A DNA stretch of 64,000 nt, from assembly GCF_040958095.1 (NCBI RefSeq), contig NC_091175.1, forward strand, positions 23,221,179 through 23,285,178, read 5' to 3'. The position numbers and the translations under genes were made by a program. This DNA is from Procambarus clarkii (lineage: Eukaryota > Arthropoda > Malacostraca > Decapoda > Cambaridae). Shown here piece by piece: positions 29,852 through 61,252 of this stretch. The notes below the pieces were generated by a model, which saw nothing but the letters and a program-made list of their open reading frames with translations, was not told the DNA's origin and ran no database searches. The number at the start of each line of letters is the position of its first letter. Within the stretch, counting starts at the first letter, position 1.

Positions 29852-29926
29852 CTGTGTCATGGGGATTAGCTGCCTCTCCGAGCACCTGTTCATCTCCTTC
29901 CACAGTGACTCGGCATCTGACAGGAT
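29852..29926 (-). CDS. FBH1: FBH1-like helicase, 25-codon exon
   Basis: Acceptor ATTGTCAG and donor CAG/GTGAGT enclose 75 nt in phase 0/0, encoding ILSDAESLWKEM to LIPMTQ. It connects the 36261-36129 exon to DGVVKAW of the 4650-4522 exon and corresponds to the vertebrate FBH1 stretch with LW..M......C......MTH ahead of DGYLKLWQL (from memory). Its 3' half has been tandemly copied into the downstream intron. The downstream intron is 25.2 kb and contains the Polinton; without the nested insertions it would be about 1.5 kb. Confidence 0.87.
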
Positions 29927-30029
29927 CTGACAATATAAAGTTAAATTATAAACACAAAGTACTTTGTTGGTCAGTTATCGTCACTGTGTCTTCCTTCCAG
30001 GTACAGCGTAACATACTGTAATATTTCTG

Positions 30030-30310
30030 GACTTGACCTTGCATCGATGTGTGAAATTAAGGGAAACTTTTCTAGAGAGCGCTTAGGGAAAAAATTCTTC
30101 CTTAGTGCTTAAGGGAAAGCATGTTTCTCTAGAGACTAAGTTATTGCATATACATCTAGCGTATACTAGTATGCTCCTTCATCCCTTAAAGGAAAGTATG
30201 CTCCACTAGTGATTAAGGGAAAATATGCTACTCAATTCAGGGTAAATATACTTCACCATCGCTCCAAGGGTAAGTGTACTTCACCAGTGCTTCTGGGTAC
30301 ACCACAGATA
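30030..30310. repeat. Degenerate repeat with AAGGGAAAGTATGCT-type units
   Basis: Loose tandem copies of a 30-35 bp unit (AAGGGAAA...GCTTC/CTCTAG). Poorly conserved. Confidence 0.5.
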
Positions 30311-31260
30311 GAGTATGACATGTCTGAGTTACATGGTCTAAGAGAGAAATAATGGCTCATGTGTAGCTATTTATAGAATAAAGCCAAACCCTACCAGGAT
30401 ACAGAGAATGTCTAGTAAGTAAATGACCACCATTTTGAAGACAACACCCCAGGGAGGAGTCTGTAATGGGTTCCATACAAAGATATGAAATTAAATCCAA
30501 TAGCTATAAGTATATTATGGTAATCCTCTAAAATAAATATATAATCATTAAATGATTGTTTAATCAGAAAAGTTTGGTTAACGATTGTATTAAGCGGTAT
30601 TTAAAACAGGTTGGGTGCCTATACCCGCCTTCGTGGGGATTTAACTAGTGTCTAGACTCTGCCGCTAGAGTAAACACTCTAGCACCACAACAAAGGTAAA
30701 CCACTGTTATATACACTGAGTTTCTGCCGTTTTATATATCCATGGACCTTTGTATGGTGGTGTAAACTACACATATAAGTGGATAAACATTAAGACTCAC
30801 TGTTTAAAGAGACTAAAGTGTGTGTCTTGCTAGAAACTGTGAGTGAAAAGTGATGTCACACCGGCGCAACTCGAGCTGAAGGAGCCAGACACAATAATAA
30901 ATCCTATACCACCACAACGGTAGTTAACAACACTACACTACTGAGCATCGGGTCTGCATTCACATAAAATAATACGATTAAGAGTTTGATGAAATAAGCT
31001 AGATACTGTGGGTCCACTTTTCTGGTAGGTCTTTGCTATAATCCTTTTTTCCTCTGCAAACTCGTTATGCCGTTACGAGCCCATCTTAGTAAGGTAATTA
31101 CTTGCCACTTAGGTGCAAGGACGTGTCGTGTGTAGAGGCTCTGTGCTTGGTGAAGATGTCACATACAAGTGAGAAGTCGGAGAGGTCACATGCAACTCAT
31201 CGCTACTTGGAGAAAGGTGTAGCTCTACAAGTTCTGCCAGGTAAAAGAGGGCATTTGTCC
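30311..31260. other. Intron sequence without recognised gene
   Basis: Unique-looking, AT-rich. A TGTAATGGGTTC near 30462 and GAGCCCATCTTA near 31077 could be the ends of a ~0.6-kb non-autonomous transposon, but the match is weak. No coding potential was recognised. Confidence 0.35.
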
Positions 31261-31261
31261 A

Positions 31262-31425
31262 ATATGGCAACACCAACATATTGGACTAACCCTCTACATG
31301 GACAGAAGCTTCACATTATATTATAGATTCAACAACATTTTTGACTAACCCCCTACTTGGACTGAACCTAATCATTATGTTACAAATTCAACAACATATT
31401 GGACTAACCCTCTACTCATTGTGAA
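31262..31425 (-). repeat. Distal part of the 36.1-kb exon donor-derived minisatellite
   Basis: Three ~60-bp units (CAACATATTGGACTAACC... TCTAC.TGGACTGAACC) of the same family as 35745-36128. The array appears to have been split by the sequence in between. Confidence 0.8.
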
Positions 31426-32165
31426 TCCCAGTGGCCTCGTGACCTATAATCTTCCTTGGGTGGGAATTATTCCCCATCCAAACATAATATTGACTGAAAA
31501 CTGATGTATAGTGTGGTCTGTAGAATAAACTAGAGTCGCATGAGAGAGAAGAGACAGGTTTTGAGGGCATTTATGTATGTTACTGAGTAACATATTAAGT
31601 GAGCAGGAAGGTGGCGACATGGGAATTTCCCAAGGAGACAGGAATTTGATGATGTCGTCATTGGCCATTGAGGGAGGAGCCAAGCTGTGACGCATCACGA
31701 ACAGAGGCTGTCATTGGTTAAGACATCACTTGCAAGTGTGGGGTTGGTGAGGTCACACACAACTCGTCACTACTTTATGAACGGTACAGTTCTGTTGTCT
31801 TGGTGAAGGAAGAAGAACTTGTTCCATGACAGGAACAAGTTCTATCAGTTAGGAGGGCGACTGCGGTGTCAACCTCAATCAGTGGCCAGGAGTGACGTTC
31901 AGAAGGCAATGAGAGTGGAGCGAGTATAAGGTTTACTCGCTATCTGTAGTGAGTAAACTTATACTCGCTATAAGAGTGACTATACTTTGGTGTCATACGT
32001 GGTAACCTACAAGTGGTTTTATTTGCCCCAGGTGAGGACAGTGTGACAGGTTAACCAGAGTGGATGCTTGCGTCTGACCCCCCACAAGCAAGCCAGGAAC
32101 AGAAAATTCGACAGTGGCATTCGAGAAGGGAGTTGTGGACGACCTGGGGGAAGGTAGACCCTAGG
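31426..32165. other. Intron sequence, loose duplications only
   Basis: Contains a diverged ~100-bp duplication of the 31140-31240 block (GTCACA...CAACTC.TC.CTACTT at about 31700-31770) and a short TATACTCGCTAT inverted motif near 31925-31970. No gene was recognised. Confidence 0.35.
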
Positions 32166-32850
32166 TACCATCTTGATTTGTGGAGACAAGCGTCGTCTCA
32201 CCTTGAGTGTGGAGACAAGCGTCGTCGCACCTTGAGTGTGGAGACAAGCGTCGTCGCACCTTGAGTGTGGAGACAAGCGTCGTCGCACCTTGAGTGTGGA
32301 GACAAGCGTCGTCTCACCTTGAGTGTGGAGACAAGCGTCGTCTCACCTTGAGTGTGGAGACAAGCGTCGTCTCACCTTGAGTGTGGAGACAAGCGTCGTC
32401 TCACCTTGAGTGTGGAGACAAGCGTCGTCTCACCTTGAGTGTGGAGACAAGCGTCGTCTCACCTTGAGTGTGGAGACAAGCGTCGTCTCACCTTGAGTGT
32501 GGAGACAAGCGTCGTCTCACCTTGAGTGTGGAGACAAGCGTCGTCTCACCTTGAGTGTGGAGACAAGCGTCGTCTCACCTTGAGTGTGGAGACAAGCGTC
32601 GTCGCACCATAAATGTCGAGACAAGCGTTGTTGTACAATGAGTGTGAAGACAAGCGTCGTCGCCACCATGAGTGTGGAGACACGCGTCGTCGTACCATGA
32701 GTGTGTGAAGACAAGCGTCGTTGTACAATAAGTGTGAAGACAAGCGTCGTTGTACAATAAGTGTGAAGACAAGCGTCGTTGTACAATAAGTGTGAAGACA
32801 AGCGTCGTCGTACCATGAGTGTGAAGACAAGCATCGTCGCCACCAATCCA
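32166..32850. repeat. 29-bp minisatellite with donor-like motif
   Basis: About 23 units of 29 bp around GGAGACAAGCGTCGTCTCAC. On the minus strand each early unit reads CTCAAG/GTGAGAC, a close match to a 5' splice site. Units above 32620 are diverged, with GTTGTACAATAAG replacing the donor. Confidence 0.9.
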
Positions 32851-33540
32851 CTTAGCAGAGCTGAGATTGCCATATCTGCCAACAATGGTGTGTGGGGAGT
32901 TTTGGTGAAAAGTTTTTTTTAATATATATGATAGTTGTTTGTAGAGGAGGATTATTTTTGTTATATGTGAAATTACAGGTTCGTGTGTGGTAGATGAGAG
33001 CTATTTTCGTCTGGCGACCAGTCAGTTGGTGGTACTTCTGTTGACCTATAGAGAATAATTCGTCAAAGAGAACATCCACCCTACAGCCAGCAGATAATTA
33101 TTTTACTAGAGAAAAGAATCTAACACCTTAGCCTGAGATATTCCAAGACATTCGAAGCTATTTGATGTGTAAGGTGTATGAGGCTGTAATTTAGAGCCTA
33201 AATGTTGAGGATTCTTCCGTCAAGGCATAATTTTTTTGTGTATTGTATATCCTTTAATAAATTCTTGTTAAAGGATTTGTTTCCTATTGTTCTCTGTGAG
33301 GATTTTATTGAAAAAGAGATAACTTGAAAACAACACTGAGCGGTCATCGGGAGCAGACGTGTCCACTGTGCTAGACATCACGATCACGAGCGCTTTATTC
33401 TTGTAGGTCTGCCCCACTCCCAGTCTGGTTTCTTATACCGGGAAGAGATGGAAGGCCTTCTTCAATAATGAGAAGAGTAAACCAGCCGGCCGTACTCTCA
33501 GTGAGAAAGTGTTTTCTTCCATCTTCCATCAACACTCCCT
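32851..33540. other. Intron sequence without recognised feature
   Basis: AT-rich to mixed composition; no RNA gene, repeat family or convincing coding block was seen. Confidence 0.35.
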
Positions 33541-34230
33541 TGGTAAGCTGATTGCCTTGGTCGAGCTGCCCTATAGGTCACAAACGCTTCAAGGTCCGGG
33601 GTACTCCCCACCACGAGCCTCCGTTCTCCAAGACATACCTCCTGAAACTCTTTAAAAAAGTCGGTGATGTAACACCTTTCAACATCGGCCAAGATGGCAC
33701 GGACATCGTTTTCTACTTCTCGAGCGAGGAGGACCTCGACACACTGCTGCAAAGCGTCTACAAACTTCGCGAGAAGCACATATTTCTCCACTACCCAAGT
33801 CAGTACCTTGCTGCCCGACCAGTCTTTGTCAGTAGCCTCAGCCAATGGATCGTGGAACAGATCCGAGAATCACATATACTGAACAACATCGAGGAATCAA
33901 ACCTGGGCATGGTGTTATTCTGTATTCTGCAACTATCACACCTTGAAGCTCACATTCACTTCGGTAGCTGGGGCTTCCCTGGCTGCCAAGAACGTCGCGC
34001 TTACTTCTACCACGTACTGCCAACAGCTGCAACGCCCGCTCCTGCTGCAACTGTATCGCAAGCCACCCAGGCTCCGACGACTTCTCATTCTCATCTATCG
34101 ACATCTGCCACTGTTCCACCTCTCGTGTGTGCACCCACACAACTCTACATCTGCTGCAGGACCTGCGGTGATTACTCAACCTGCAAGAACTCAACCCTCA
34201 ACCAAACCATGGGAATAGTAAAGCATGCCA
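33540..34230 (+). mobile_element. LINE ORF1-like remnant (RRM-like)
   Basis: An open stretch beginning near 33552 encodes KRFKVRGTP ... GTDIVFYFSSEEDLDTLL ... RPVFVSSLSQWIVEQIRES. The beta-alpha-beta pattern with an RNP-like GTDIVFYF fits the RRM fold of some LINE ORF1 proteins that coat the RNA. After about 33900 the frame is unrelated low-complexity sequence. It lies just upstream of LINE reverse transcriptase C-terminal remnants on the same strand, which supports a LINE origin. The family is not certain. Confidence 0.5.
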
Positions 34231-34830
34231 GTACCTTCAAGGGAAAGAAAAAAAATATTGATGAAGGTAACTGCAGAAAGCTTATTGGCACATTCGAGGC
34301 AGTTCCTATTTATAACCACCCAATGAAAAGAAAGATGTCGTTCAACTGTGAAAGTCTCTGGTGCGCCCCACCTGAATTATTGCATCCATGCATGGAGACC
34401 TCATCACCAAAAGACATAGCTGCGCTTGAGAACATGCATCACAGGGCAACAAAGATCATATCAGATCTTAGTCATTTCTCATGACGGAAACGGTTGAGGG
34501 GCCACGGGGCTAACAATATTGCAGACCAGGCATGACAGGGCGAATTTAATAGAAATCTTCAAAATAATACACCATTTGGACGCTGTCGATCCCGACACTT
34601 TCTTCAAAAGGTAAGAAAGGTTCCTCGTTCCACGAACGAGGAACAACGGGTTCAAGCTCAACATGCCACAATGTAGGACAGAAAACAGGAGATGCTTTTT
34701 CACTCATAGGGTTGTAAACCCGGGGTTGTAAACTTTCTCGCCGAAGCCATAATCGCTAAAACTCTGCTGGGTTTTAAAATACAGATTGAAAAGATCATCC
34801 GGGCAAATGGGGGGAACCTTTGACAAGCCG
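34230..34830 (+). mobile_element. LINE ORF2 C-terminal remnant with inserted tail fragment
   Basis: Frames read ALENMHHRATKIISDLSHFS, then VDPDTFF, then FFHS..VNP.., then AKTLLGFK.QI.KII, the usual order of conserved blocks at the C-terminus of CR1/Jockey-type ORF2, with several stops and frame changes. Near 34255-34325 is a minus-strand copy of the CR1-like 3' tail (GCAGAAAGCTTATTGGC). Confidence 0.7.
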
Positions 34831-35744
34831 CCAGCTTCCTGTCATCGCTGAGGCCACTATTATTAGTGGACCTCGGGTAAATTCAAGATTCATCACCTCT
34901 GCTATTGAGTCAGCTGATTCATGGGATGGGGAAGTCTCGGCTAGATCAACATCTCCTCCATGGAAGTGCCCCTACACAATTGAAGCTTTCCTTCTGGACA
35001 CTACCTCCAACGACAGCACCACCATGACAACATGTAGTCAGACCAACAGACCAGCCAGGAAGCCCAGGAAAAAGAAGACCAACGATCCGAGCCTGATGAA
35101 ATCATCAATAAAAAAAAAAGGCAATTGACGAAATGTAGAAACGAAGAACACCAGAACTGTGACGAGATGCCCGGCCTCCTGCAAGACACATCAGCGAGAA
35201 ACCATGAGAATTCCACCCTAACACCAAACCACAGCATCAGCTGCAAGTCTTATTATCTACGGTGGTTAAGTCACTGATCTTTTTCTCCCCTTTTCAACTT
35301 GTCTCCAGTTCCTAGATCAAGATTTCTGCATCCTCCCCTGCCTTCCTTCCCCTGCTTACCTGCTCTAGGGGCCTCTAGGAGCGTGGAGGTGATCTGCCAG
35401 TTAATTAATGTGTAAGGTTAAATGCAAGATTTGCCAGTTAATTAATGAAGATAGATAACGAGGGAACTGTGTGACAGGACACCTGAATAATGTGAGGGAA
35501 AGATTGAGTCACCTATAGCTCAATTTGGGGTGTGATGTCATGATGACAGGTGAGTGCCCCAGTCTGTAGTTCTCGAATCTGTGACGTGCAACTTCTCCCT
35601 CACAATTAAATACGAATCCGGGTGATTCCTTACTGAGGGTACTGGTATTGTCATGGTGTCAGCAAAGGTGGCAGCAATGGGGGTGTCTGCTAGTTTTTTT
35701 TTAATTATCTGAATAGTTTGGCAATTTAGAGGTCTAAAACGTGG
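34831..35744. other. Intron sequence, no supported feature
   Basis: Possibly further LINE decay at the left, then unique sequence with a TTAATTAATG duplicate near 35405-35445. No exon of the host gene was found here. Confidence 0.35.
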
Positions 35745-36128
35745 TAACTTGTACATTATATTACAGACTCACCACCATATATGAATAATCCTATACATGG
35801 ACTGAACCTACACATTATATTATAAACTCACCAATATATTGGTATAACCCTCTACATGGACTGAACATGAACATATTACAGACTCAACACATATTAGAAT
35901 TACACTATATATGGACTGAACCTACACATTATATTACCAACTCACCAACATATTGGACTAACCTTCTATATGGACTGAACATGCACATTATATTACAGAC
36001 TCCTCAACATATTGGACAAACACTCAACATACACACTACATTACACACTCACCAACATATTGGGCAAACACTCAACAAGGACTCAACATACACACTACAT
36101 TACACACTCACCAACATATTGAACTAAC
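35745..36128 (-). repeat. Minisatellite built from the 36261-36129 exon donor
   Basis: About seven ~60-bp units ending exactly at the exon's donor. The genuine junction reads GGAAG/GTTAGTTCAATATG on the minus strand, and units repeat it as AGAAG/GTTAGTCCAATATG followed by TTGGTGAGT, so each unit carries one or two donor-like sites. Confidence 0.85.
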
Positions 36129-36261
36129 CTTCCATTTATATTCGTCCGTGACCAGATATTTTTTATTGTCAGTGTCGGGGACGTGGTGCAGGGTGATGTA
36201 CTCGTCTGTACCACTCATGAAGCAATTAACTGTTCTTCTTACTAAGTCAGCCCTCCAATAA
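36129..36261 (-). CDS. FBH1: FBH1-like helicase, central exon
   Basis: 133 nt between acceptor AACTTGCAG and donor GGAAG/GTTAGT, entry phase 2, exit phase 0. It encodes YWRADLVRRTVNCFMSG ... YITLHHVP ... DEYKWK, matching the FBH1 block FIRAKLVCKTLENFFASAD...LTIDHVP (from memory). This region lies between helicase motifs Ia and II. Both sides of the exon are bordered, without a gap, by minisatellites derived from its own acceptor and donor. The frame is uninterrupted. Confidence 0.9.
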
Positions 36262-36885
36262 CTGCAAGTTGTTGGGAAAATGTACATTAGTTATTGAGAG
36301 TGTGTTCACAAGTTATTGGAAGAGTGTACACAAACTATTCTGAGGTTTACACAAGTTATTGGGAGAACCTGCACTTGTTATTAAAAAGGTGTACAGCAGT
36401 TACTGGGAGAGTGTATATAAGTTATTATGAGTGTACTTAAGTTATTAAGAGAGCATGGAAAAGTTATTGGAGGAGAGTAGACAAGTTATTGGGAGTGTCG
36501 ACAAGATATAAGGATAGTGTACCCAAGTTATTGGGAGTGTATAAAAGTTATAGGAAGAATGAACACAAGTTATTAGGAGAGTATACATAAGATATTGGGA
36601 TGGTGTACAAGTTATTGGAAAAGTGGAGAAAATTTATTGAGTTTATATATGTGTTTAGGAAAGTGTACTCAGTTTCTTAGGAGGATGTACACAAGTCATT
36701 AAGAGAGTGTACACAAGTTATTAAGAGGGTGAACAAAGTTATTACGAGGGTATATATAAGTTAGTGTAAGGATTTACAAAAGTTGCGAGGGTGTATGCAA
36801 ATTATTGAGATGATGTACACAACTTGTTTGGAACTTGTACACAAGTTATTGGGAGGGTGTACATAAGTTATTGAGAAGTACACAA
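36262..36885 (-). repeat. Minisatellite built from the 36261-36129 exon acceptor
   Basis: About 27 degenerate units of 20-24 bp (AAGTTATTGGGAGAGTGTACA). The first unit, AAGTTGTTGGGAAAATGTACA, is the complement of the exon's polypyrimidine tract and acceptor-proximal sequence, so the array grows directly out of the 3' splice site. Confidence 0.8.
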
Positions 36886-36899
36886 TTTACTTCCAATGT

Positions 36900-38285: not shown

Positions 38286-38289
38286 GATT

Positions 38290-39435: not shown

Positions 39436-39439
39436 CGAT

Positions 39440-39778: not shown

Positions 39779-39781
39779 TGT

Positions 39782-39945
<164 letters not shown>

Positions 39946-40065
39946 AAATATGACCGAAAAAGTAAGATTAATAATTCTAACACGAATTTCTCAATCTTTC
40001 GTACATTACGCTTCACTGTTGGAGGTAAATCAAAAATCACTTCTCCAAAATTCATTTTTATTTCT

Positions 40066-40118
40066 AGTCTGACGCGACACGGGCGCGTTTCATAAAACTT
40101 ATTACATTTTCAAAGACT
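40066..40118 (-). ncRNA. Hammerhead-like ribozyme fold (minus arm, degenerate core)
   Basis: Counterpart of 46074-46126, with one change next to GAAA that weakens stem II. See that entry for the fold. Confidence 0.35.
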
Positions 40119-50227: not shown

Positions 50228-52085
50228 GCTCAACTTACAGTCTGCCCACAATGGTCGCAACCCAACTTACCGTCTGCCAACAATCGTCGGACTTAAACTT
50301 ACCGTCTGCCAACAATGGTCGCAACCCAACTTACCGTCTGCCAACAATCGTCGGACTTAAACTTACCGTCTGCCTACAATGGTCGGAGCCCAACTTACCG
50401 TCTGCCAACAATGGTCGCAACCTGTTACGGCCCTCTCGGGACGCAACGGGGTCCTTACTCTGATGTTGTTAGAGGAAGTTATATCCGACCCCAAGCCAGC
50501 AGTGGCTTTCAAGGGATGCGATCCGTGACGCAAGTAACTTAAAGGGAGTAGGGAAAGAAAGCTAAGAACTTAATATAATATAATGTCCGTCACCAATAAA
50601 TAATATATAAAACGGTTACACAAAGGGGGGGGGTATTAACACTAGACAAGGGGATTAATCCACAAATTAGTCTTCTTCTGAAGACTCTGGAGCCAGAAGC
50701 TAGGTGCTGAGTCCGCGGTGCTTTCTTCGTGGCCTCACGACGTGTCCTCTGAGAATGCCGAGCCTACCCTGGCCACAGGTCAGCCAAAACACAGGTCCAC
50801 TGAGGGCACCGTCGTGGAGGCCGTCAACCACACGTCCAGCTGGTCTGCTGGCAGGTACTGAGCCACCAAGGCTGGTACGGCCACTCCACGAACGATATAA
50901 GGGGTACGCCCTAGACAGGAGTCTCGTGTGATATCACAAATCACCCTCCTGTCCTCAATACCCCAGTGGATGATCGTCTCCAACAGTCGGTCCCGGGTAA
51001 ATCCTTTCACTGCCACTCCACTGGCAGGCTAACACACTACAGTGTTCTTCCGGGGGGACGACGTCACAACAGCTGCAGCAAGGTTCAAGGTATGGAGACT
51101 GGCTGCCTCGGGTAGACTGACTCCACTTCCATCACAGTGGTCCCAGGTCGGCTCTGTAAGCAGACACGTCATCAATAACCGGGACACTAATACACCTCAC
51201 TTACGGACTCGGGCACAAACACCTGACGTATCCAGTCCATAGATGGCGCTGTCGTCGGAGCACCACCTCACCAGAGGTCAGGAGCGGCGGTGTTGAGCGC
51301 TGAACCAGACTGGAAACTGGTCCTCGAGGCCAGTACACGCTGTCCTCACCCGGTGTCGTCGTTCGTTTGGCGGGGGTTTCGGGAGCTGACCCACAGATGG
51401 CGTAGTCGTTACTACTCCGTGCTCGGATGCTGGATCCGGGTTCGTAACACAACCCAACTTACCGTCTGCCAACAATCGTCGGACTTAAACTTACCGTCTG
51501 CCTACAATGGTCGGGGCCCAACTTACCGTCTGCCAACAATGGTCGGAACCCAACTTACCGTCTGCCAACAATGGTCGGAGCCCAACTTACCGTCTGCCAA
51601 CAATGGTCGGAGCTCAACTTACCGTCTGCCAGTGATGGTCGGAGCCCAACTTACCGTCTGCCCACAATAGTGGCAGCACGCCTTACCGTCTGCCAATAAT
51701 GGTCGGAGCTCAACTTACCGTCTGCCAACAATGGTGACAGCACTACTTACCGTCTGCCAACAATGGTGGCAGCACGACTTACCGTCTGCCAACAATGGTG
51801 GCAGCACTACTTACCGTCTGCCAACAATGGTGGCAGCACGACTTACCGTCTGCCAACAATGGTGGCAGCACGACTTACCGTCTGCCAACAATGGTAGCAG
51901 CACGACTTACCGTCTGCCAACAATGGTGGCAGCACGACTTACCGTCTGCCAACAATGGTGGCAGCACGACTTACCGTCTGCCAACAATGGTGGCAGCACG
52001 ACTTACCGTCTGCCAACGATGTTCGGAACTCAACTTACCGTCTGCCAACAATGGTCCGACCCCAACTTACCATCTGTCAACAATA
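50228..52085 (-). repeat. 32-bp minisatellite of exon donor copies (interrupted by solo LTR)
   Basis: Units of 32 bp carrying CAACTTACCGTCTGCCAACA. On the minus strand this is TTGGCAGACG/GTAAGTTG, the exact exon-intron junction of the 53041-52848 exon. Together with 52346-52847 there are about 42 units, in TGG-, GGAGCC- and GGCAGCACG-type subfamilies. A solo LTR (50423-51449) and a SINE (from 52090) are inserted. Confidence 0.92.
50423..51449 (-). mobile_element. Solo LTR, second copy (inverted)
   Basis: A 1027-bp unit, reverse complement of 27628-28661, with TGTTACGG...TTCGTAACA ends and a perfect 5-bp duplication CAACC (50418-50422 and 51450-51454). It has no internal genes. It sits inside the 32-bp minisatellite, so it is younger than the array. 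The two copies are similar throughout with scattered differences, hence of moderate age. Confidence 0.9.
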
Positions 52086-52089
52086 CTTA

Positions 52090-52345
52090 TCTAATCTTGA
52101 GTTGATTTCGGGGCTTAACGTGCCCGCGGCCCGGTCCTCGACCAGTCCTCCTTTTGTTACACTCCCCCCACCCCCCAGGAAGCAGCCCGTAGCAGCTGTC
52201 TAACTCTCAAGAACCTATTTGCTGCTAGGTAACAAGGGCATCAGGGTGAAAGAAACATTCTGCCCATTTGTCTCCGCCTCCACCGGGAATCGAAACCGGA
52301 ACCTCAGAACTACGAATCCGAAGAGCTGTCCACTCAGTTGTCAGG
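52090..52345 (-). mobile_element. tRNA-derived SINE (minus strand) inside minisatellite
   Basis: Minus-strand relative of the SINE at 48302: the tail TTGAGTTGATTTCGGGGC is at the left, the body CCAGGAAGCAGCCCG, then CGGTTTCGATTCCCGG (box B-like) and a diverged head near 52345. Units of the 32-bp array continue on both sides. Confidence 0.82.
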
Positions 52346-52847
52346 AGCCCTACAATGGTTGGAGCCCAGCTTACCGTCTGCCAACCATGGTCGAAGCCCA
52401 ACTTACCGTCTGCCAACAATGGTTAGAGCCAAATTTACCATTTGCCAAAAATGGTCGGAGTCCAACTTACCATCTACCAACAAGGGTCCGACCTCCCCAA
52501 CTTACCATCTGTAATCAATGGTTGGAGCCCAGCTTACCGTCTCCCCACAATGGTTGGGGATCAACTTACTATCTGCCAACAATGGTCGAAGCCCAACTTA
52601 TCGACTGCCGACAATGGTGGTAGCACAACTTAGTGTCAACAATAGTGGCAGAACAACTTACAGTGTCAACAATAATGGCAGCCCAACCTACAATCTGCCA
52701 ACAATGGTCGAAGCCCAATTTACCGTCTGCCAACAATGGTGGCAAAACAACTTACAGTGTCAACAATGGTGGCAGAACAACTTACAGTGTCAACAATGGT
52801 GGCAGCCCAACCTACAGTCTGCCAATAATGGAGGCAGCACAACTTAC
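52346..52847 (-). repeat. 32-bp minisatellite of exon donor copies, proximal part
   Basis: Diverged units continue right up to the genuine donor at 52848, where CAACTTAC/CGTCTGCCAA is the real exon junction. Near the exon, some units are shortened and have AGTGTCAACAATGG instead. Confidence 0.88.
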
Positions 52848-53041
52848 CGTCTGCCAATGTGGGCAAAAGCCATGGACCGAACAGTCTTTACTGTAACATT
52901 GATGGGGAATGTTTGTGAACATTGTTCCTGGAGTGACTCTGAGGGGACGAGCAGGAGAAACTTGGTGTGTGGTCGCTCCTGGCAGAACCGGCGCAAGGTT
53001 GTAGTCTTGCCCGTTCCTGCAAAGGCGTTAATCTTCACGAC
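52848..53041 (-). CDS. FBH1: FBH1-like helicase, Walker A exon
   Basis: 194 nt from acceptor ATTTCCAG to donor GACG/GTAAGT, entry phase 0, exit phase 2. It encodes VVKINAFAGTGKTTTL (helicase motif I, P-loop intact), then FLLLVPSESLQEQ (motif Ia region) and VKTVRSMAFAHIGR, closely following FBH1 (VVKIMAFAGTGKTSTL ... KTFHSMAYGHIGR, from memory). This is the strongest single match of the gene. Both splice sites have been expanded into minisatellites in the adjoining introns. Confidence 0.94.
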
Positions 53042-53410
53042 CTGGAAATAATTATATCATTCACAAGCTGGACAACCAATTATATTATCATTCACAACCT
53101 AGATAGCTATTATAACATCATTCACAACCTTGACAACTATTATAAAATCTTTCACAACCTGGATAACTATTAAAACCTCGTTCATAACCTTGAAAGTTAT
53201 GACAAGACAAGAATTATAACCATCATTCTCAGCCTGGATAACAATTATAGTATCGGTCACAACAAAGAAAATATTTATAACATCATCCACAAATAAGATA
53301 GCAATTATAACATAGTTCAGTCTGTAAAATAAGATTTACATCAGCCACAACAGGACAAAAATTACAAAATAATTCACAACAATGATAATAATTATATAAT
53401 CATTCACATG
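53042..53410 (-). repeat. Minisatellite built from the 53041-52848 exon acceptor
   Basis: About 12 units of ~31 bp around CATTCACAACCTGGATAACTATTATAA. The first is the acceptor-proximal intron itself (CCTGGAAATAATTATATCATT, which on the other strand ends in the TTTCCAG acceptor). Confidence 0.8.
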
Positions 53411-55075
53411 CAGGCGATGAGTCACAATAACGTGGCTAAAGTATGATGACCAGACCACACACTTGAATGTGAAGGGACGACGACGTTTCGGTCCGTCCTG
53501 GACCATTCTCAAGTCAGTTGTGATGAGGAAGATTGATTGATTGCTCTCTGACTCTCGAACTTATGCTCCTCTGACTTCTAACCCTTTGGATCGCCTCAAA
53601 ACTTCCTTTAACCGCAAACTAAGACACCTCTCTAGTTTTTGTCCTCCTGACTTTGATCTCATTAAACGTTTCCGTGTCATCTGCCCTTCTCTTCCTAATT
53701 TCTATGGTCTTCCTAAGACTCATAAACCTGGTGTTCCTCTTCGTCCTATCATTTCTTCACGGGGCTCTGTCAGCTATCCTCTTGCCTCCTGGCTCGCTAA
53801 AACCCTGACGCCTTACCTTGGCACTTTTTCCCCTGCCCACCTTCGTCATTCTCAGGACTTCATAGAAAGACTGCGCCTGCAACCCTCTTGTAAGATGCTT
53901 AGTCTTGATGTCGACTCTCTGTTTACTAATGTTCTGCTCGATGACGTTCTCTCTTTCCTTCGACAGAAAGCGTCTGAGGGCCTTCTTCCTCTCCCGCTTC
54001 CCACTGACGTTTTCCTCGACCTCATTAGACTCTGTGTTGACTCTAACTCTTTCTCTTTCAACGGTAAATATTACACTCAAACTTTCGGTGTCGCTATGGG
54101 TTCCCCTCTCTCCCCTGTTCTTGCTAATTTCTACATGGAATACTTCGAAACTGTTCTTCTTCCTTCTATTGATACTCGTCCCTCTCTCTGGCTTCGCTAG
54201 GTTGATGACATTTTTGCTTCATGGCCTCATGACCTTAGTCTTTTCCAGCCTTTCCTCTCCTCTCTTAACAATCTGGCTCCTTCTATTCATTTCAAAGTTG
54301 AGTGGGAATCTAATTCTCTCCTTCCTTTTCTTGACGTTCACGTTCACAGCTGTGTCCGGGTTCTCTTTCTCTGTCTACCGCAAACCCATGCACAGTGGCA
54401 TGTACATTCACTTCTTTTCCTACCATCCTCCTTCTGTTAAGAAAAGTGTCCTCGTCTCTCTCTTCCTCCGCGCTCTACGCATCAGCGACCCTCAGTTTCT
54501 TGATTCTGAAATTGTCTTTATCTACAAATCATTCTCTCGCCTTGGTTACCCTTTGCATTTCATCTACTGTGCCTACTCTCAAGCTAAACGAAATTTCTTT
54601 CATCCTAAACCTACTTCCACCACTAGTAGCACTGTACTATGCCTTCCCTTCATATCTGAACTCAAAACTTTTACCAATACCTTTCGTCCTCTTGACATTA
54701 AACTCGCCTTTCGACAAACTAACACACTTCGTAGCAATCTAGTTCACACTGCTCCTCCTGCTTCTAATGCTGCTGGTGTCTACTCTATTTCCTGTTCGTC
54801 TTGTCCTCTCCAATACTTTGGCGAAACTGGCGTACACTGAATGACAGACTTAAAGAACACAAGAGAAGTGTTAAGTCTGCAGACACAAACAATGCTCTCT
54901 TCTGCCATGTGAGGGATTCTAATCATCCCATTGATTGGTCTTCCTTCAAAATAATCTTTCCTGCCTCTACTCTACACAGACGCCGTCTTGTTGAATCGGC
55001 TTTAATACACAATGTACCCAATATGAACTTGAGTCCTGGCTTTGTTGCTGTGGACTCTTCCCTTTCACAGTATAT

Positions 55076-56093
55076 AAGAACATAAGAACATAAGAACAAA
55101 GGCAACTGCAGAAGGCCTATTGGCCCATACGAGGCAGCTCCTATTTATAACCCCCCAATCCCACTCATATACATGTCCATCCCATGCTTGAAACAATCGA
55201 GGGACCCCACCTCCACAATGTTACGCGGCAATTGGTTCCACAAATCAACAACCCTGTTACTGAACCAGTATTTACCCAAGTCTTTCCTAAATCTAAACTT
55301 ATCCAATTTATACCCATTGTTTCGTGTCCTGTCTTGTGTTGATACTTTTAATACCATATTAATATCCCCTTTGTTATGTCCATTCACCCACTTGTAAACC
55401 TCTATTATGTCACCCCTAACTCTTCGCCTTTCCAGTGAATGCAACTTAAGCTTTGTTAATCTTTCTTCATATGAAAGATTTCTAATTTGGGGAATTAACT
55501 TAGTCATCCTACGCTGGACACGTTCAAGTGAATTTATATCCATTCTATAATATGGCGACCAAAACTGAACTGCATAATCTAAATGGGGCCTAACTAGAGC
55601 AAGATATAGCTTGAGAACCACACCAGGTGTCTTGTTACTAACGCTGCGATTAATAAATCCAAGTGTCCGATTTGCCTTATTACGAACATTTATGCATTGA
55701 TCCTTTTGTTTTGAATTCTTACTAATCATAACTCCCAGATCCCTTTCGCAATTCGACTTCGCAATCTCAACACCATCTAGCTCGTATCTTGTAACCCTAT
55801 CATCATTACCTAACCTCAGAACTTTACATTTATCAGAATTAAACTGCATCTGCCAATCCTTCAACCATTTCAAAACCCTATCTAGATCAACTTGAAGTGA
55901 TAGTGAGTCCTCCTCCGAATTAATTTCCTTAGCGATTTTCGTATCATCGGCAAATTTGCAAATGTTGCTACTCAAACCTGAATCTAAATCATTTATATAT
56001 ATTATAAACAACAGAGGGCCCAGGACAGAGCCCTGAGGCACCCCACTTACAACATTTTCCCACTCTGACTTGACTCCATTTATACTAGCTCTG
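55076..56093 (-). mobile_element. CR1-like LINE copy inserted in Penelope-like element
   Basis: 5'-truncated copy with the ACATAAGAACATAAGAAC tail at 55076 and ORF2 open from GSVLGPLLF (about 56036) through FADDTKIAKEI to MSGIGGL (55145). It is nearly identical to the matching part of 40707-42381. It starts just 5' of PQGSVLG, so it covers only the last third of RT and the C-terminus. Confidence 0.92.
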
Positions 56094-56236
56094 TTTCAAA
56101 TACTCTAATCTTTCTAACATACGTGACCTTACATAAGCTTACCCTTTCCATTTACCTTTCTTTCTCTTTTCTCTTTTTTTCTGTTCATTGTCTTCTCCTA
56201 CGTCCCCTCACTTTTCTCTTCTCATAATTTTCTCCT

Positions 56237-56300
56237 TCTCTTTCGGTGGTTATAATAGGAACTGCCTCGTATGGGCCAATAGGCCCTCTGCAGTTCCTAC
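56237..56300 (+). repeat. Tail motif shared by Penelope-like and CR1-like elements
   Basis: ATAGGAACTGCCTCGTATGG and GCCAATAGGCCCTCTGCAG match the sense 3' end of the CR1-like LINE, but lie in the 3' part of the Penelope-like element, opposite in orientation to the adjacent CR1 copy. Confidence 0.75.
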
Positions 56301-56563
56301 TACTAGCCCCTCTACTACACCTTACGTTGCTCCTCATCTCTCGTGCCTATTTATTGCATGTCTCTACTTCCTCATTTGGGTTTGGAGAGTGAGTTGAGGT
56401 AGGGGGAAGATTTAGGACTAAGGAAGTTTAGATTGTGAACAGATTAGGACAGACAATTCGGTCAGAATGTTGAGTTACTTATTTGATTTTTTTTTAATTT
56501 AACACGTAGAAACGTTACTTACATGACTGGCAGTAAATAGACATATATTCTGAAATAACTTAC

Positions 56564-57158
56564 ATGACTGGCTTCTATTTTGTGGTTGATTATTCTTAGT
56601 TGTTCATGAGTAAGATGAAGAGTCTCGCTTTGGATGACTTTCTTTGTTGTCTGATGACCCACAGACACCTGCTGGTGTAGTTGACGCACAGACACCTGCT
56701 GGAGTTGACCCACAGACACCTGCTGGAGCTGTTGAACCACAGACACCTGCTGATGCAGTTGACCCACAGACACCTGCTGGAGCTGTTGACCCACAGACAA
56801 CTGCTGGAGTTGTTGATCCACAGACACCTGCTGGAGTTGTTGACCCACAGACACCTGCTGGAGCTGTTGACCCACAGACACCTGCTGGAGCTGTTGACCC
56901 ACAGACACCTGCTGATGCAGTTGACCCACAGACACCTGCTGGAGCTGTTGACCCACAGACAACTGCTGGAGTTGTTGATCCACAGACAACTGCTGGAGTT
57001 GTTGATCCACAGACAACTGCTGGAGTTGTTGATCCACAGACAACTGCTGGAGTTGTTGATCCACAGACACCTGCTGGAGATCGTTGGGATGATATGTTCC
57101 TGCAGTTCTCCATTTGTTCTCATACAGTTTCAGTGTATAATACACCAGATAGTGGTAC
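56564..57158 (-). CDS. FBH1: FBH1-like helicase exon with in-frame 27-bp repeat expansion
   Basis: 595 nt from acceptor CCTTACAG to donor TCAT/GTAAGT, entry phase 2, exit phase 0, open throughout. It begins YHYLVYYTLKLYENKW, which resembles vertebrate FBH1 HYNIFYCLYLQENS (from memory), and ends LHLTHEQLRIINHKIEASH, matching LTHEQQLILNHKM just before the Walker A exon. Between these conserved ends about 15 repeats of nine residues (QQLQQVSVG/D) are encoded by a 27-bp minisatellite. In the family this is a short linker between the F-box part and the helicase core. The repeat could instead be bypassed by an internal acceptor, but no pyrimidine-rich one is evident. Confidence 0.82.
56660..57090 (-). 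repeat. 27-bp coding minisatellite
   Basis: About 15 units (plus strand CAGACACCTGCTGGAGCTGT and seven more bases), inside the exon above. The period is a multiple of three and no frame on either strand has a stop, so length changes keep the frame. Confidence 0.92.
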
Positions 57159-57235
57159 CTGTAAGGTTATCATAGAGGTAGATTGGATAATACACTATAT
57201 GGTGGTACCTGTAATATTATCATATACGTAGATTG
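57159..57235 (-). repeat. Tandem duplication of the 57158-56564 exon acceptor
   Basis: GTGGTACCTGTAA occurs at 57153 (true junction) and 57202, giving a second ATTACAG/GTACCAC acceptor 49 bp upstream in the gene's sense. Confidence 0.75.
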
Positions 57236-57237
57236 TA

Positions 57238-57530
57238 ATCACCTAGTTGTGTTTGCAGGGGTTGAGCTCTGATCTTTCGGCCCGCCTCTCAACTGTCAAT
57301 TAATCAAGTGTTGCTAACTACTCACTACTTTTTTTTCTGGGGGTGTCACACACTCCATGAAGCAGCCGTAGCAACTGTCTAACTCCCAGATACCTATTTA
57401 CTGCTATTTAACAGGCGCATCAGGGTGAAGGAAACTCTGCCCCATTTGTTTTTCCGGCTGTGCCGGGGGAATGAACCCCGGTCCCTAGGACCACAAGTCT
57501 AGAGCGCTGTCCACTCAGCCACCACCCAAT
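57238..57530 (-). mobile_element. tRNA-derived SINE (minus strand)
   Basis: Minus strand reads GTGGCTGAGTGGACAGCG (box A), GGGGTTCATTCCCCC (box B region), the body GCAGTAAATAGGTATCTGGG and GGCTGCTTCATGGAG, with a tail at about 57240. Older than the copy at 48302. Confidence 0.83.
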
Positions 57531-57699
57531 GAATGTTGTCATTCTGGATGGGTGTTGTGTATAATACAATATCTGGTGTATTGTATAATATATCAGATGG
57601 TATTACATGTAATATTATCATAATTAAATAATTATTTTTGCCGGGGCACAGGCAGCCAATTTATACATACAGTACATGTTAGGCATATAATGAACCGCG

Positions 57700-58865
57700 A
57701 AGTTATACAACTGTATACAGTCTGACTATCCTGTGTCTCCATATGATTCAACTGAATAAAGACTGACTACTGGGACTCGTCACTTGATACGACTGTATAG
57801 ATTGACCACTGTAACTCTCCATTTGATATATCTGTATAGGGTGACAACTATGACTCTCCCCATGATACAACTGTATACAGACTGATCTGGGTGACTATTC
57901 ACTTGATACAACTGTCTCCATTCTGACGTTTGTTGTACCCTGCTTGTTTTAGCTATTTTCAGATAGATCCGGCTGACACAACATTTGTTACAACTGCCAT
58001 TAATCTCCTCTGTGAGACTACTCAGAGTGACCCCTGCCACAATCCACGTGGCCCAATTGTACCCTGTGGTACAATATTTGTTATAACTGCTTGTAGTTAT
58101 AAGAATGTGGCTTCTTACTTCTTACAACTCTTCCTGGACTGAAGTGTCACTCCACATGTTATAATTGTCCTCAGCTATTCCCTTGTGACACTGCACTTGT
58201 TACAGTTATACTCAGACTAACTGCTACGACACTTTGCTCGTCTGCCAAACTGATGCCTATTTATTATAAGTGTTAAGTGTTCTGAGACTGAAATGTGGCT
58301 ATCAGCTTGTTATAACTGTCTACGGGCTGACCCCTGTGGCACTACATTAGTACATGTGTCCTCTAGCTGACCTGCGACACTTGTTACAACTGTCTCCTGA
58401 CTGATCTGCTGCATATAAATTATTGCACTTCTCTCCACACCGGCCTATGTTGCACTGCACATGTTTAAACCTTTCTAAGGAGTTACCAAGGTTACACTTC
58501 ACATGATACAGCTGTTGTCTTATTATGAATGTCCCAAGAAATTTTCTTTTGACACACCGCTTGTTACATCTGTACCCAGAATAAAAGTGACTTATTAGTT
58601 GTACCGAGACTGACCACTCTGCCCTTACACTTGTTACAACTTTTCTCAGACATACCCGTCATTACTGCCACTTGGTCCATGTGTCCCTACACCGACCCCA
58701 GTTGGGACTCACATGGCAGTACTGACCTCAGTAGAATAACTTGCTCCAGGTGTCCCAAGAAAGACCCCTGAGATGCTCTTCATGTTACAGCTCTCTACTG
58801 TTACATCTGTTCCAGACTGACCGCTGTCACACTCAACCTGATAAACAGTCTTCAGAGTAGCTCCT
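57700..58865. repeat. Degenerate ~45-bp tandem repeat
   Basis: Loose units around GACTGACC.CTGTGACAC...CTTGTTACAACTGT; periodicity is visible but strongly eroded. No exon of the host gene could be found in it, although the F-box part of FBH1 would be expected between 61 and 57 kb. Confidence 0.6.
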
Positions 58866-59175
58866 GTGCCTGACAAACTTGACTGAGTTGTATTACAAGA
58901 TTCTAAAATAAGACTGGAAAAAATAAGCCTTGTAGATTGAATTTTCCTAGATTGCCAAAAATCATTTTTTATTTTTTCTCGTTAGGTGACAAGTCGGTAT
59001 CTACACCATAATGGTAAGACAACTACAGGAATCTGAAAAAGAATAATAATTGGGAAATGTGATAGGATATAATTCCAACATTAACATCAGAAGCACACAT
59101 AAACAGAATAAAATCAACAGCTTACGTTCCATATCAGGAATCAGGAATCTTTCAAGACAATCTTTAGTCTTTGTT
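58866..59175. other. Intron sequence without recognised feature
   Basis: AT-rich unique sequence; nothing recognised. Confidence 0.35.
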
Positions 59176-59500
59176 AGACCAATACTGTAATAAACACTAT
59201 CAACCTGGAATCAGCACCTTATGAAACAAAACAAACAAAATTAAAATTGTATGAAGGTTTGCAAGAAAATTTGTGCCAGAGATTAGAGGGTTAAGCAATG
59301 AGGATAGGTTAATGGAAATGGACCTCACAACGCTAGAGGAGAAACAGTGGATATGATCATAGCATATAATAGAGCATACTTGGAGCATTCTCAGAAGGAA
59401 AGCAGACAAGGGGGGACAAGGAAAGCCTTTTCAACTGAGAGAAAGTATGATTAGAGGACACACGTAGAAGCTGGAAATTTAAAAAAATATTTTGCATTTG
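59176..59500 (+). mobile_element. LINE ORF2 C-terminal fragment
   Basis: Plus-strand remnant (LVPEIRGLSNEDRLMEMDLTTLEE), the conserved block after RT in Jockey/CR1-type LINEs, with stops. It precedes a longer fragment of a similar family in the same orientation. Confidence 0.6.
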
Positions 59501-59509
59501 CACACTTCA

Positions 59510-60760
59510 TATATCAAATATATACAGACTTTGCAAAGGCAATCGATAAATGTGACAATGGAGTGATAGTCCATAAAATTAAATCAATAGGAATAACGGG
59601 TAAAGTTGGGTACTGGATTTTCAACTTTCTGTCAAATAGAATGCAGAGAGTGACGGTTATTCAAATAATATCAATCGCAAGTATAGTGAAAGCTCTTTAC
59701 CCTAGGGCACAGTCCTTGCACCGCTGCTCTTTCTCATGCTTATCTCTGATATAGACAAAAATACTAGTCACAGATTCGTGTCATTCTTTGCAGAATATAT
59801 AAAAATCAGCATGAAAATGTCCTCCGTAGAAGATACTAAAAAACTTCAGGCAGATATTAATAAAGTCTTCGATTAGCCAACTAAAAATAACATGATGTTT
59901 AGTGGTGACAAGTTCCAGGTACTTAGGTATGGTGGAAACGAGGAACTGAAACGAAACACAGGGTACAAGACACAATTAGACCTACTCATTGAAGGAAAGC
60001 AATATGTAAAAGATCTGAGAATTTTGATGTCTGACGACCTGAAATTTAGTGAACATTACCGAGCAAATATAGCGGCGGCCAAGAAAATGATAGGATGGAT
60101 TATGAGAACGTTCAAATCCAGAGACACCTCAGAAATGCTAATACTATTTAAATCACTGGTGCTGTCCCGTCTTGAGTATTCCTCGGTACTCACATGCTCT
60201 TTCAGAGCGGGAGAGATTTCTGAATTAAAGGGACTAAAGAGAACATATACCGGACCCATAGAAACGATAAAGCATCTAAATTTATGGGACCGTCTCAAAG
60301 CTCTCAAAATGTACTCTTTGGAAATGAGACGAGAAAGGTATCAGATAATATATACATGGAAGATACTTGAAGGTCAGGTCCCAAATTTGCATGGCAGAAT
60401 AACAACATACTGGAGCGAAAGACACGGAAAGAAATGCAGGATAGAACCAATGAAGAGTAGAGGTGCCAGGGGGCACAATCAGAGAATACTGTCTGAACAT
60501 CAGAGGTCCCCAGCTGTTCAACACCCTCCCAGCAAGCATTAGAAATATTGCTGGAACAAAAATGGATGTATTCAACATGGCACTTAGATAAGTTCTTGCA
60601 AGAAATGCCTGACCAACCAGGCTGTAGTGGATATGTGGGCCTGTTGGACCTCTCCAAGCAACAGCCTATTGGACCAAATTATCACAAGTCGAGCCTGAGT
60701 TCAGGCCGGGCTCGGGGAGTAGAAGATCTCCCAGAACCCTCTCCAAGTATGCTCTAGGTA
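59510..60760 (+). mobile_element. Jockey/CR1-type LINE RT fragment
   Basis: Plus strand: DFAKAIDKCDNGVIVHKIKSIGI (motif A region), LLFLMLISDIDKN, FFAEYIKIS (for FADD), then an open frame at 59892-60542 covering FQVLRYG, YKTQLDLLIEGKQYVKDLRILMSD, LEYSSVLT and LKALKMYSLEMRRERYQIIYTWKILEGQVPN. It ends near a WNxLP-like block (FNTLPASIRNI) and AIGPN. Frames are broken and the 5' half is absent. Confidence 0.82.
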
Positions 60761-61069
60761 TGCAAATGTGTCGATTAAATATAAGTATATTCATACTCGT
60801 ATCTTGTGGGGGGGGGGGGTAACAAGTAGAACGCGTTATAAGAAGTTGCCGAAGCCACCTATATTAACAATTTTATGGCTAGTTTCGAAATAGAATTCAA
60901 GCGTCATAATAAATAAATTATAACGCAACCGGTAAAACAAGGACATTAGGCGAGGCGCTAAGAACTAGAGCTCAGTTCCACCGTAGTCACTGACTGGGAA
61001 GTAGTGATAGGTAAGCCCTTCAATTGCTGCAACTTTCCTCAGATTATCCTTCGAGACACTAGTTGTTAC
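60761..61069. other. Intron sequence with a G-run
   Basis: A run of 13 G at about 60809-60821, otherwise unique sequence on the donor side of the tentative 61252-61070 exon. Confidence 0.4.
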
Positions 61070-61252
61070 CTGCCCGTTCTCCTGAGTTGCTCAACGGACA
61101 AAATATGGAATCCGTTGAGAAAATCCACAAAGAAAACATGGATGTTTGTGAGAAGCAACTTTTCATAGTACTCCATATTTTGTGGGTTAGAGATCATAGC
61201 ATACACAATGCTGTGTATTATTTGAGAGGACAGACTGTTGTTACAGGTGTTC
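61070..61252 (-). CDS. Tentative upstream FBH1-like exon
   Basis: 183 nt between TGTAGCAG and GGGCAG/GTAACA, open, exit phase 2, which fits the entry phase of the 57158-56564 exon. It encodes SQIIHSIVYAMISNPQN, LLLTNIHVFFVDFLNG and ILSVEQLRRTG. The helical Leu-rich character suits the N-terminal half of FBH1 after the F-box, but residue matches are too weak to be sure, and about 40 residues expected before YHYLVYY are not accounted for. It could be an exon of this gene with another small exon missed between, or a chance frame. An alternative acceptor lies at 61235. Confidence 0.45.

Follow-up and report, generated by a model that had tools for sequence, protein, structure and literature searches.

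Minisatellite-like tandem repeats that lie across exon–intron boundaries, at donors or at acceptors, have been described in amphioxus as 'mirages', in the genes Adh3, PGBD5 and troponin C and in the globins BflGb6 and BflGb9 (PMC3087553, PMC3902484). Their units measure 10–72 bp (Adh3) and 150–160 bp (globins), AG or GT is kept in many, not all, copies and the cluster boundaries are excluded from homogenisation (PMC3087553, PMC3902484). The crayfish arrays analysed here likewise span boundaries at both donors and acceptors, and their copies mostly, not always, keep AG or GT; measured against these accounts, they belong to this already known kind. They differ in coming from another phylum, in affecting five or more junctions within one gene, in array spans of as much as about 2.6 kb with insertions counted and in a minisatellite density that rises towards exons. 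Moreover, the amphioxus mirages are described with splicing and instability data, as leaving regular splicing intact and as polymorphic in length and somatically unstable, whereas the crayfish arrays are known from DNA sequence alone, from one gene in one genome (one haplotype). No arthropod mirage was found in our literature search; under that name, mirages were confined in the literature searched to isolated cases in lancelets. In a collection of viral contigs, no relatives were confirmed.

Human variable internal tandem repeats also occur at exon–intron boundaries, where cryptic splice sites are said to be activated in some; the genes concerned belong to recent segmental duplications, roughly half of these repeats are coding and the boundary ones have been linked to novel introns (PMC2812944). 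The crayfish gene shares with them the minisatellite expansion at exon–intron borders, whereas the recent segmental duplications and the large coding share are, as reported there, features of the human repeats (PMC2812944). In potato RdRp, tandem duplication in the gene has been linked to intron gain (PMC4974935). The likeness lies in a tandem duplication within a gene that is tied to intron structure; on that study's account the potato intron was created, whereas in the crayfish existing junctions are multiplied within existing introns. The duplicated potato segment reportedly bears AGGT.

The window (the whole 64,000-nt stretch of Procambarus clarkii DNA that was analysed) carries on its minus strand an FBH1-like DNA-helicase gene, of which seven exons (one tentative) with 13 splice junctions were placed (Table 1). 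Two of them, E7 and E8, were missing from the original prediction. Joined via the predicted exon-proximal sites, the seven exons give a coding sequence of 2182 nt with 0 stops, and all six introns (3.5–25 kb) have GT–AG borders. The PDB chain 9xzj_F ('F-box DNA helicase 1') aligns to E3 and the end of E2, to E5 with E6 and to E8 (E=4.8e-46 against the joined translations of E1, the end of E2, E3, E5, E6 and E8). The alignment of the E5–E6 stretch is weak (11.1 bits, i-Evalue 1.1), and E5 alone was recovered by local tblastn using the letters of the 9xzj_F chain (6e-4). Both E7 (2e-8) and E8 were recovered with a piece of FBH1 as the query, and Pfam UvrD_C matches E8. For E1 no homology was found; this exon rests on phase compatibility with E2 and on GT–AG borders. 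A stretch matching positions 455–477 of 9xzj_F was not found in the window. The Walker A motif AFAGTGKT is present in E3. Not all helicase motifs are intact: GDPHQQIYTFRGA of the 9xzj_F chain is GDSYQHLGPSLGT here, and the helicase motif VDEAQD reads FDGAED. Judged by homology over the helicase region the gene is FBH1-like, and because of these two replacements it is named no more closely than that. E2 also holds an in-frame 27-bp coding repeat (56651–57079), which was omitted from the placement test described below.

Table 1 Exons, junction-associated arrays and an insertion in the window
Feature	Position in the window	Strand	Basis
E8 exon, UvrD-like C-terminal domain, runs off window	1..873	-	Pfam, 9xzj_F, match to FBH1 piece
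E7 exon	4522..4650	-	match to FBH1 piece
E6 donor array, 64-bp unit, 5 copies	29571..29890	-	TRF, shuffle test
E6 exon, 75 nt	29852..29926	-	weak 9xzj_F alignment, open CDS
E5 donor array, 59-bp unit	35746..36129	-	TRF, shuffle test
E5 exon	36129..36261	-	9xzj_F alignment, tblastn
E5 acceptor-side array, about 22-bp unit	36262..36885	-	TRF 36265-36873
E3 donor array, 32-bp unit, about 42 copies, insertion-interrupted	50228..52857	-	TRF, shuffle test
Solo-LTR-like insertion in E3 donor array	50423..51449	+ (strand arbitrary)	TGTTACG...CGTAACA, CAACC target-site duplication
E3 exon, Walker A	52848..53041	-	9xzj_F alignment
E3 acceptor array, 30-bp unit	53034..53410	-	TRF extent 53034-53193, degenerate copies beyond
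E2 donor duplication, 15-nt identical stretch 41 nt downstream	56510..56574	-	p=0.09 vs shuffles
E2 exon	56564..57158	-	9xzj_F alignment at its end
E2 acceptor duplication, 2 copies, 50-bp unit incl. 22 exonic nt	57137..57235	-	TRF, shuffle test
E1, tentative exon	61070..61252	-	phase with E2, GT-AG
E1 acceptor array, 30-bp unit, about 60 copies	61253..63103	-	TRF, shuffle test

Arrays were called by TRF, and the distance to the nearest array edge was taken for each of the 13 junctions. An edge lay within 100 nt of 11 junctions (mean of random placements 1.80), within 50 nt of nine (1.03), within 25 nt of six (0.55) and within 10 nt of four (0.23); without the tentative E1, 10 of 11 junctions had an edge within 100 nt. 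These counts were reached in at most 3 per 10,000 random placements (in 0 of 20,000 at 50 and 100 nt) and were matched by 0.04–0.11% of circular shifts. The nearest edges were those at the E5 donor (0 nt), E5 acceptor (4 nt), E3 acceptor (7 nt) and E3 donor (9 nt), followed by the E7 donor (13 nt), E2 acceptor (21 nt), E6 acceptor (36 nt), E6 donor (38 nt), E7 acceptor (49 nt), E1 acceptor (71 nt) and E8 acceptor (99 nt); the E6 acceptor has no array of its own and is near one solely by virtue of the inner edge of the E6 donor array. The E1 donor (253 nt) and E2 donor (573 nt) are far from any edge. In a simple binomial test that assumes a uniform spread, the edges crowd the border even among the 11 near junctions, with four within 10 nt (p=0.019) and six within 25 nt (p=0.034).

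Two further measurements agree with this placement. The ends of other long ORFs, with those more than 10% covered by arrays omitted, were near an array edge in 10 of 158 cases. Minisatellite coverage, with a 277-bp satellite set aside, is 56% in the 100 nt nearest to exons and declines steadily to 1.4% at distances above 5 kb; this satellite was dropped from the gradient after being seen, and keeping it raises the two farthest bins from 11.4% and 1.4% to 19.1% and 23.7%. The original prediction that arrays lie at exon borders beyond chance is thus supported, and the comparison of array-end to exon-end distances with random positions, which it had put forward as a check, gave enrichment in this gene. 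The same holds for the two exons that it had missed, E7 and E8, which have array edges within 100 nt.

Copies of the 13 junctions were sought in the adjacent introns against 100 dinucleotide shuffles each. At six junctions, three donors (E3, E5, E6) and three acceptors (E2, E3 and the tentative E1), the copies beat all 100 shuffles; without E1, this was so at five of 11. No copies in the adjacent intron were found at five junctions (E1 donor, E6 acceptor, E7 acceptor, E7 donor and E8 acceptor), and two (E5 acceptor, E2 donor) are doubtful, so that the claim that the units contain the exon's own splice site holds for the first six and fails at the five. A score of at least 15 was reached by eight of the 13 junctions and by none of 160 exon-interior control tests (maximum 14), whose points came mostly from E8 and E2, and not from the short E6. 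Naive self-similarity did not separate junctions from random positions, since tandem arrays take up roughly a quarter of the 64,000 nt and 21–37% of 1500 random positions self-match as strongly as the six positive junctions; edge placement and the exon-interior controls were therefore used instead. The donor GT is kept in 41 of 43 (E3), 6 of 7 (E5) and 5 of 5 (E6) aligned copies and the acceptor AG in 7 of 13 (E3) and 46 of 60 (E1), the authentic junction being included in each count.

The further claim that the arrays were seeded by the junctions finds its best support where exonic nucleotides lie in the array, at the E6 donor (39 nt), the E2 acceptor (22 nt) and the E3 donor (10 nt). These are the only three of 13 junctions at which the exon-side match alone, on the same strand, had an uncorrected p<0.05 (0.005, <0.005 and 0.025, respectively); inverted-strand exon-side tests were also low at the E7 donor (0.005) and E2 acceptor (0.02). 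At the E1 acceptor, E3 acceptor and E5 donor the exonic share of the match is not significant by itself, and seeding is correspondingly less certain there.

Both E3 arrays carry the exon's own splice site, as predicted, and their edges lie inside the exon, by 8 nt at the acceptor and by the 10 nt already mentioned at the donor. The donor unit carries cagacg|GTAAGTTG; one of its 43 aligned hits is probably spurious. Exon-proximal E3 copies score below distal ones. The exonic bases common to the array code for IGR, part of a HIGR stretch that is conserved in 9xzj_F, and this points to the exon as the source of the unit. The E6 donor array, also correctly predicted, has a unit made up of the last 39 exonic and 25 intronic nucleotides, with GTGAGT in four of five copies. 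Compared without gaps, the exon end agrees with four array copies at 27 (in a copy that carries a 2-nt deletion), 30, 30 and 31 of 39 positions, and the three full copies differ from one another at 1–3 positions. A diverged exon copy beside homogeneous array copies resembles the boundary exclusion in amphioxus, at E6 only.

At E5, the prediction stood for the donor, where the edge coincides with the junction and the unit holds a junction copy resembling GTTAGT as well as another site that resembles GTGAGT. It did not stand for the acceptor, where the array abuts the exon: the match has p=0.01 against shuffles, yet only 3 points of it are exonic and AG lies outside the unit. This array and the start of the exon share 10 identical bases in inverted orientation, a match no better than in shuffles (p=0.43), and an origin by inverted copying was rejected. 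The acceptor array that had been tentatively assigned to E1 shows junction copies (score 20, above 100 of 100 shuffles), with a degenerate copy at the junction and a TRF start at 61323; the exon itself remains tentative, placed by phase only. Of the supposed doubling of both E2 splice sites, the acceptor was upheld and the donor comes down to the short match in Table 1. The arrays at E7 (4699–5019, 49 nt upstream, and 4444–4509, 13 nt downstream) do not contain the junction, nor does the unit of the array 972–2949, which begins 99 nt upstream of E8. All three junctions are among the five without copies, and both exons were found independently of the original prediction.

We consider the most probable explanation, at roughly 60%, to be that the arrays are mirage-type minisatellites, grown from ordinary junction-spanning duplications and tolerated on the intron side. 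An ordinary tandem duplication (by slippage, end-joining fill-in or unequal exchange) would happen to span an exon–intron junction, and the duplicated segment would then grow into the intron. Such duplications would be tolerated because the exon-proximal authentic site, of a doubled donor as well as of a doubled acceptor (in the latter the last copy), would still yield the same mRNA. The copies would thus be hidden from selection, so that arrays could accumulate, lengthen and become homogenised within the intron while the conserved exon keeps them anchored, and they would carry many decoy splice sites. The anatomy of the arrays, their enrichment at borders and the junction copies are direct observations, from which we infer the duplication mechanism, the use of the authentic junctions and neutrality. 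Neutrality alone does not account for the thinning of arrays away from exons.

That thinning would be expected if minisatellites arose anywhere in introns and survived mainly near exons, deep-intron DNA being replaced by transposable elements or deletions and exon-adjacent DNA being kept because exon-touching deletions are purged; arrays growing towards an exon would halt there. The steady fall of coverage is in agreement with such survivorship, as are the E7 and E8 arrays near junctions that they do not contain and the array-poor middle of intron 3, which holds three reverse-transcriptase ORFs (two just below the Pfam cut-off). Survivorship does not, however, predict the exonic bases in the E6, E2 and E3 arrays or the crowding of edges right at the junction (p 0.02–0.03), and we regard it as unlikely.

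Repeated donors might instead be selected, binding U1 snRNP and so aiding exon definition or suppressing premature polyadenylation in long introns, or serving as regulated decoys. The well-kept donor GT and the intron lengths found here would suit such a function, as would the strand of donor-like 9-mers of at least 10 bits (43 sense and 1 antisense in arrays, 6 and 6 outside). This bias, however, would follow from junction copying itself, which gives that orientation; the 43 sense sites are non-independent repeats of few arrays, and at 6 bits the arrays 972–2949 and 61323–63103 carry donor-like sites mostly antisense. Special conservation of the E3 donor window was not found (sixth among 32 windows, 36 ungapped copies), and the acceptor AG is retained in the modest proportions given above. 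A selected function is distinctly unlikely. We think it very unlikely that a border feature (nucleosome edge, R-loop, replication stalling or splicing-coupled breaks) raises the duplication rate at junctions: arrays coincide to the base with several junctions, on both sides of exons, and the units of different arrays are little alike, which would fit, but on one gene this is indistinguishable from neutral persistence. Coincidence by chance in a genome rich in minisatellites, for which the array content of the window and the self-similarity of random positions might speak, is exceedingly improbable given the random placements, circular shifts and exon-interior control.

If a second, distant lineage carries several mirages in a single gene, they would give rise to minisatellites and decoy splice sites more generally, and whether they originate by targeted birth or passive persistence could be tested genome-wide. 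In such genomes, splice-site predictors may be misled by numerous strong but false donors next to true exons. It is unlikely that in this crayfish, and perhaps in decapods generally, minisatellites are born chiefly at exon–intron junctions, with junction-directed duplication building decoy arrays genome-wide that feed intron growth and new splice sites. A single spreading family behind all junction arrays was rejected; the highest raw cross-scores between arrays were 130 (E7 acceptor array with 5218–5743), 79 (E5 donor array with 31274–31416) and 42 (3364–3965 with 32179–32840), and the remaining listed pairs had raw scores of 23–31.

Array edges lie at the exon borders of the FBH1-like gene far more often than chance would place them, as the original prediction had claimed. 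After the in-frame coding repeat of E2 had been excluded, 60 TRF rows were merged into 27 tandem-repeat arrays with a period of at least 9, covering 16,289 bases. An array edge was found within 10 nt of 4 of the 13 splice junctions, within 25 nt of 6, within 50 nt of 9 and within 100 nt of 11 (among these 11 is the E6 acceptor, whose only nearby edge is the inner one of the E6 donor array), compared with means of 0.23, 0.55, 1.03 and 1.80, respectively, in 20,000 trials of random exon placement. The observed counts were matched in at most 3 per 10,000 of these trials, and circular shifts of the entire exon set equalled them in 0.04–0.11% of shifts. Dropping the tentative E1 left 4 of 11 junctions within 10 nt and 10 of 11 within 100 nt. 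Of the 158 ends of 79 further ORFs (at least 90 aa, little array cover), which served as a negative control, 10 were near an array edge (≤100 nt). Array cover fell with the distance to the nearest exon from 55.7% (1–100 nt) through 45.8% (101–500 nt), 36.4% (501–1000 nt), 22.5% (1–2 kb) and 11.4% (2–5 kb) to 1.4% (>5 kb) when the 277-bp satellite (8361–14576) was excluded, a choice made after the fact; with the satellite included, cover was 19.1% at 2–5 kb and 23.7% beyond 5 kb.

Exons of the FBH1-like gene placed in the window
Exon	Position	Strand	Basis
E1 (tentative)	61252-61070	-	phase compatible; homology none found
E2	57158-56564	-	exon end placed by local tblastn
E3	53041-52848	-	local tblastn; alone matches 9xzj_F at 3.8e-13
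E5	36261-36129	-	local tblastn
E6	29926-29852	-	75-nt exon; in joined translation vs 9xzj_F
E7	4650-4522	-	found by local tblastn only
E8	873-<1	-	local tblastn; in joined translation vs 9xzj_F

The further claim that the array unit contains the splice site of its own exon was examined by junction-anchored alignment of 30 nt per side to the adjoining 1 kb of intron, in comparison with 100 dinucleotide shuffles. All 100 shuffles were exceeded at the acceptors of E1 (score 20), E2 (36) and E3 (19) and at the donors of E3 (34), E5 (29) and E6 (42), and at these six junctions the claim stands. It fails at the E5 acceptor (score 15, p = 0.01), where the unit lacks the acceptor AG and intronic bases contribute 12 of the 15 points. 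Both splice sites of E2 had been thought to be doubled; this holds for the acceptor, whereas the donor signal is weak (score 15, p = 0.09), consisting of a 15-nt identity 41 nt downstream. By the same comparison, copies were absent from the adjoining 1 kb at the E1 donor, E6 acceptor, E7 acceptor and donor, and E8 acceptor. The observation is real and was over-stated at some junctions. Exon-interior control points (106, of which 86 come from E2 and E8 and none from E6) reached a maximum score of 14 in 160 tests against their own introns. With exon-side sequence alone, uncorrected p < 0.05 was obtained on the same strand at the E2 acceptor, E3 donor (0.025) and E6 donor, and on the inverted strand in two tests (E7 donor and E2 acceptor).

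The E6 donor unit (64 bp) comprises the final 39 nt of the exon and 25 nt of the intron. Its five copies (authentic junction counted) all carry GT and four carry GTGAGT; the exon's own copy is identical to the array copies at 27, 30, 30 and 31 of 39 bases (ungapped; 27 refers to the copy with a 2-nt deletion), and among the three full copies there are 1–3 differences per pair. The 32-bp unit of the E3 donor array contains ggcagacg/GTAAGTTG, with GT in 41 of 43 aligned hits (one probably spurious; the authentic junction counted). The shared exonic bases code for IGR within HIGR, a stretch conserved in 9xzj_F (the chain that the PDB names F-box DNA helicase 1), which suggests that this unit was derived from the exon. 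Distal copies are less degenerate than several exon-proximal ones. A 1027-bp solo-LTR-like insertion with the target-site duplication CAACC interrupts this array, which therefore predates it. The 30-bp acceptor units of E3 (tatccag/GTTGTG) and E1 (tcacag/TGACC) keep AG in 7 of 13 and 46 of 60 copies, respectively, authentic junctions counted.

Most likely, duplications spanning a junction are tolerated and grow into the intron; in this account the anatomy, the copies and the enrichment are observed, and we infer the duplication mechanism, the splice choice and the neutrality. A tandem duplication across a donor would keep the exon-proximal donor, the use of which would leave the mRNA unchanged, and the exon-proximal copy of a duplicated acceptor would do likewise, so that duplications could accumulate freely on the intron side with the exon as an anchor. 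Unequal exchange would homogenise the inner copies and exclude the edge copy. If distal donors were used, the message would gain intron sequence carrying early stops, since the first in-frame stops begin 42 (E2), 1 (E3), 18 (E5) and 24 nt (E6) past the exon ends. Neutral tolerance accounts for the intron-side growth and the exonic bases in the unit but does not fully explain the steep drop of array density away from exons. This drop may come from turnover of deep introns by transposable elements, in line with reverse-transcriptase ORFs at 40.8–45.9 kb (two of three just below the Pfam cut-off) and 55.1–56.1 kb, or from a raised duplication rate at junctions. It is also conceivable that the arrays serve as U1-binding donor sites, but the donor window of the E3 unit ranks only sixth of 32 for conservation and AG decays in the acceptor copies. 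Inside arrays, donor-like sites of at least 10 bits numbered 43 in sense and 1 in antisense orientation, the 43 being repeats out of a few arrays, and outside arrays 6 and 6; at 6 bits or more, the window contained 238 sense and 183 antisense sites, and those in arrays 972–2949 and 61323–63103 were mainly antisense.

Arrays of this type are of a known but little-known kind, the mirages of amphioxus, minisatellites spanning exon–intron boundaries. These are described in globin genes (PMC3087553) and PGBD5, with troponin C named too (PMC3902484). Regular splicing, length instability, AG and GT retained by many units though not by all, and cluster boundaries excluded from homogenisation are described in PMC3087553, where the mechanism is called unclear. 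No crustacean or other case was recognised among the matches listed in our literature search, judged by titles and the beginnings of abstracts, and the words intron, exon and splice do not occur in the main text, as consulted, of a crayfish satellite paper (PMC13130569); this absence applies to the literature searched and is not proof of priority. The interest lies in the many cases within one gene and in the new lineage.

Most of one FBH1-like helicase gene is present, with introns of 3.5–25 kb. Seven exons were placed, the label E4 being reserved for a possible missing one; the local tblastn queries (for the end of E2, E3, E5, E7 and E8) were the 9xzj_F chain and FBH1 pieces. The joined reading frame is open across 2182 nt with GT–AG at all six introns. 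Joined translations (E1, E2 end, E3, E5, E6, E8) matched 9xzj_F at E = 4.8e-46, the E5–E6 portion being weak (11.1 bits). Within regions 4522–4650 and 1–873, FDGAED is found in place of the FBH1 motif VDEAQD, and GDSYQHLGPSLGT in place of GDPHQQIYTFRGA. Because these motifs appear degenerate relative to FBH1, the encoded helicase may be divergent or inactive. The coding repeat of E2 (56651–57079) is a 27-bp minisatellite whose roughly 16 copies specify 9-residue repeats rich in Gln.

Other repeats and frames were also observed. A 29-bp array deep in the E5–E6 intron (32179–32840), adjoining no known exon, has a strong sense donor (aag/GTGAGA) in its unit and 16 sense and no antisense donor-like sites of at least 6 bits; this array could be the relic of an exon that has been lost or has escaped recognition, or could have arisen by chance. 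In the same intron, 4.3 kb deeper than the E5 donor array, 2.4 copies of a unit resembling that of this array occur at 31274–31416. A plus-strand open frame of 1172 codons (14523–18038) is followed by more long frames on that strand up to about 25 kb; none of the four scanned had a Pfam match at E 0.001. The 277-bp satellite (about 22 copies, 99–100% matches) flips its orientation at about 10056, where the repeats are either truly inverted head to head or were joined so in the assembly. Upstream of E7, a 33-bp array (4699–5743) has like units flanking about 200 bp of different sequence.
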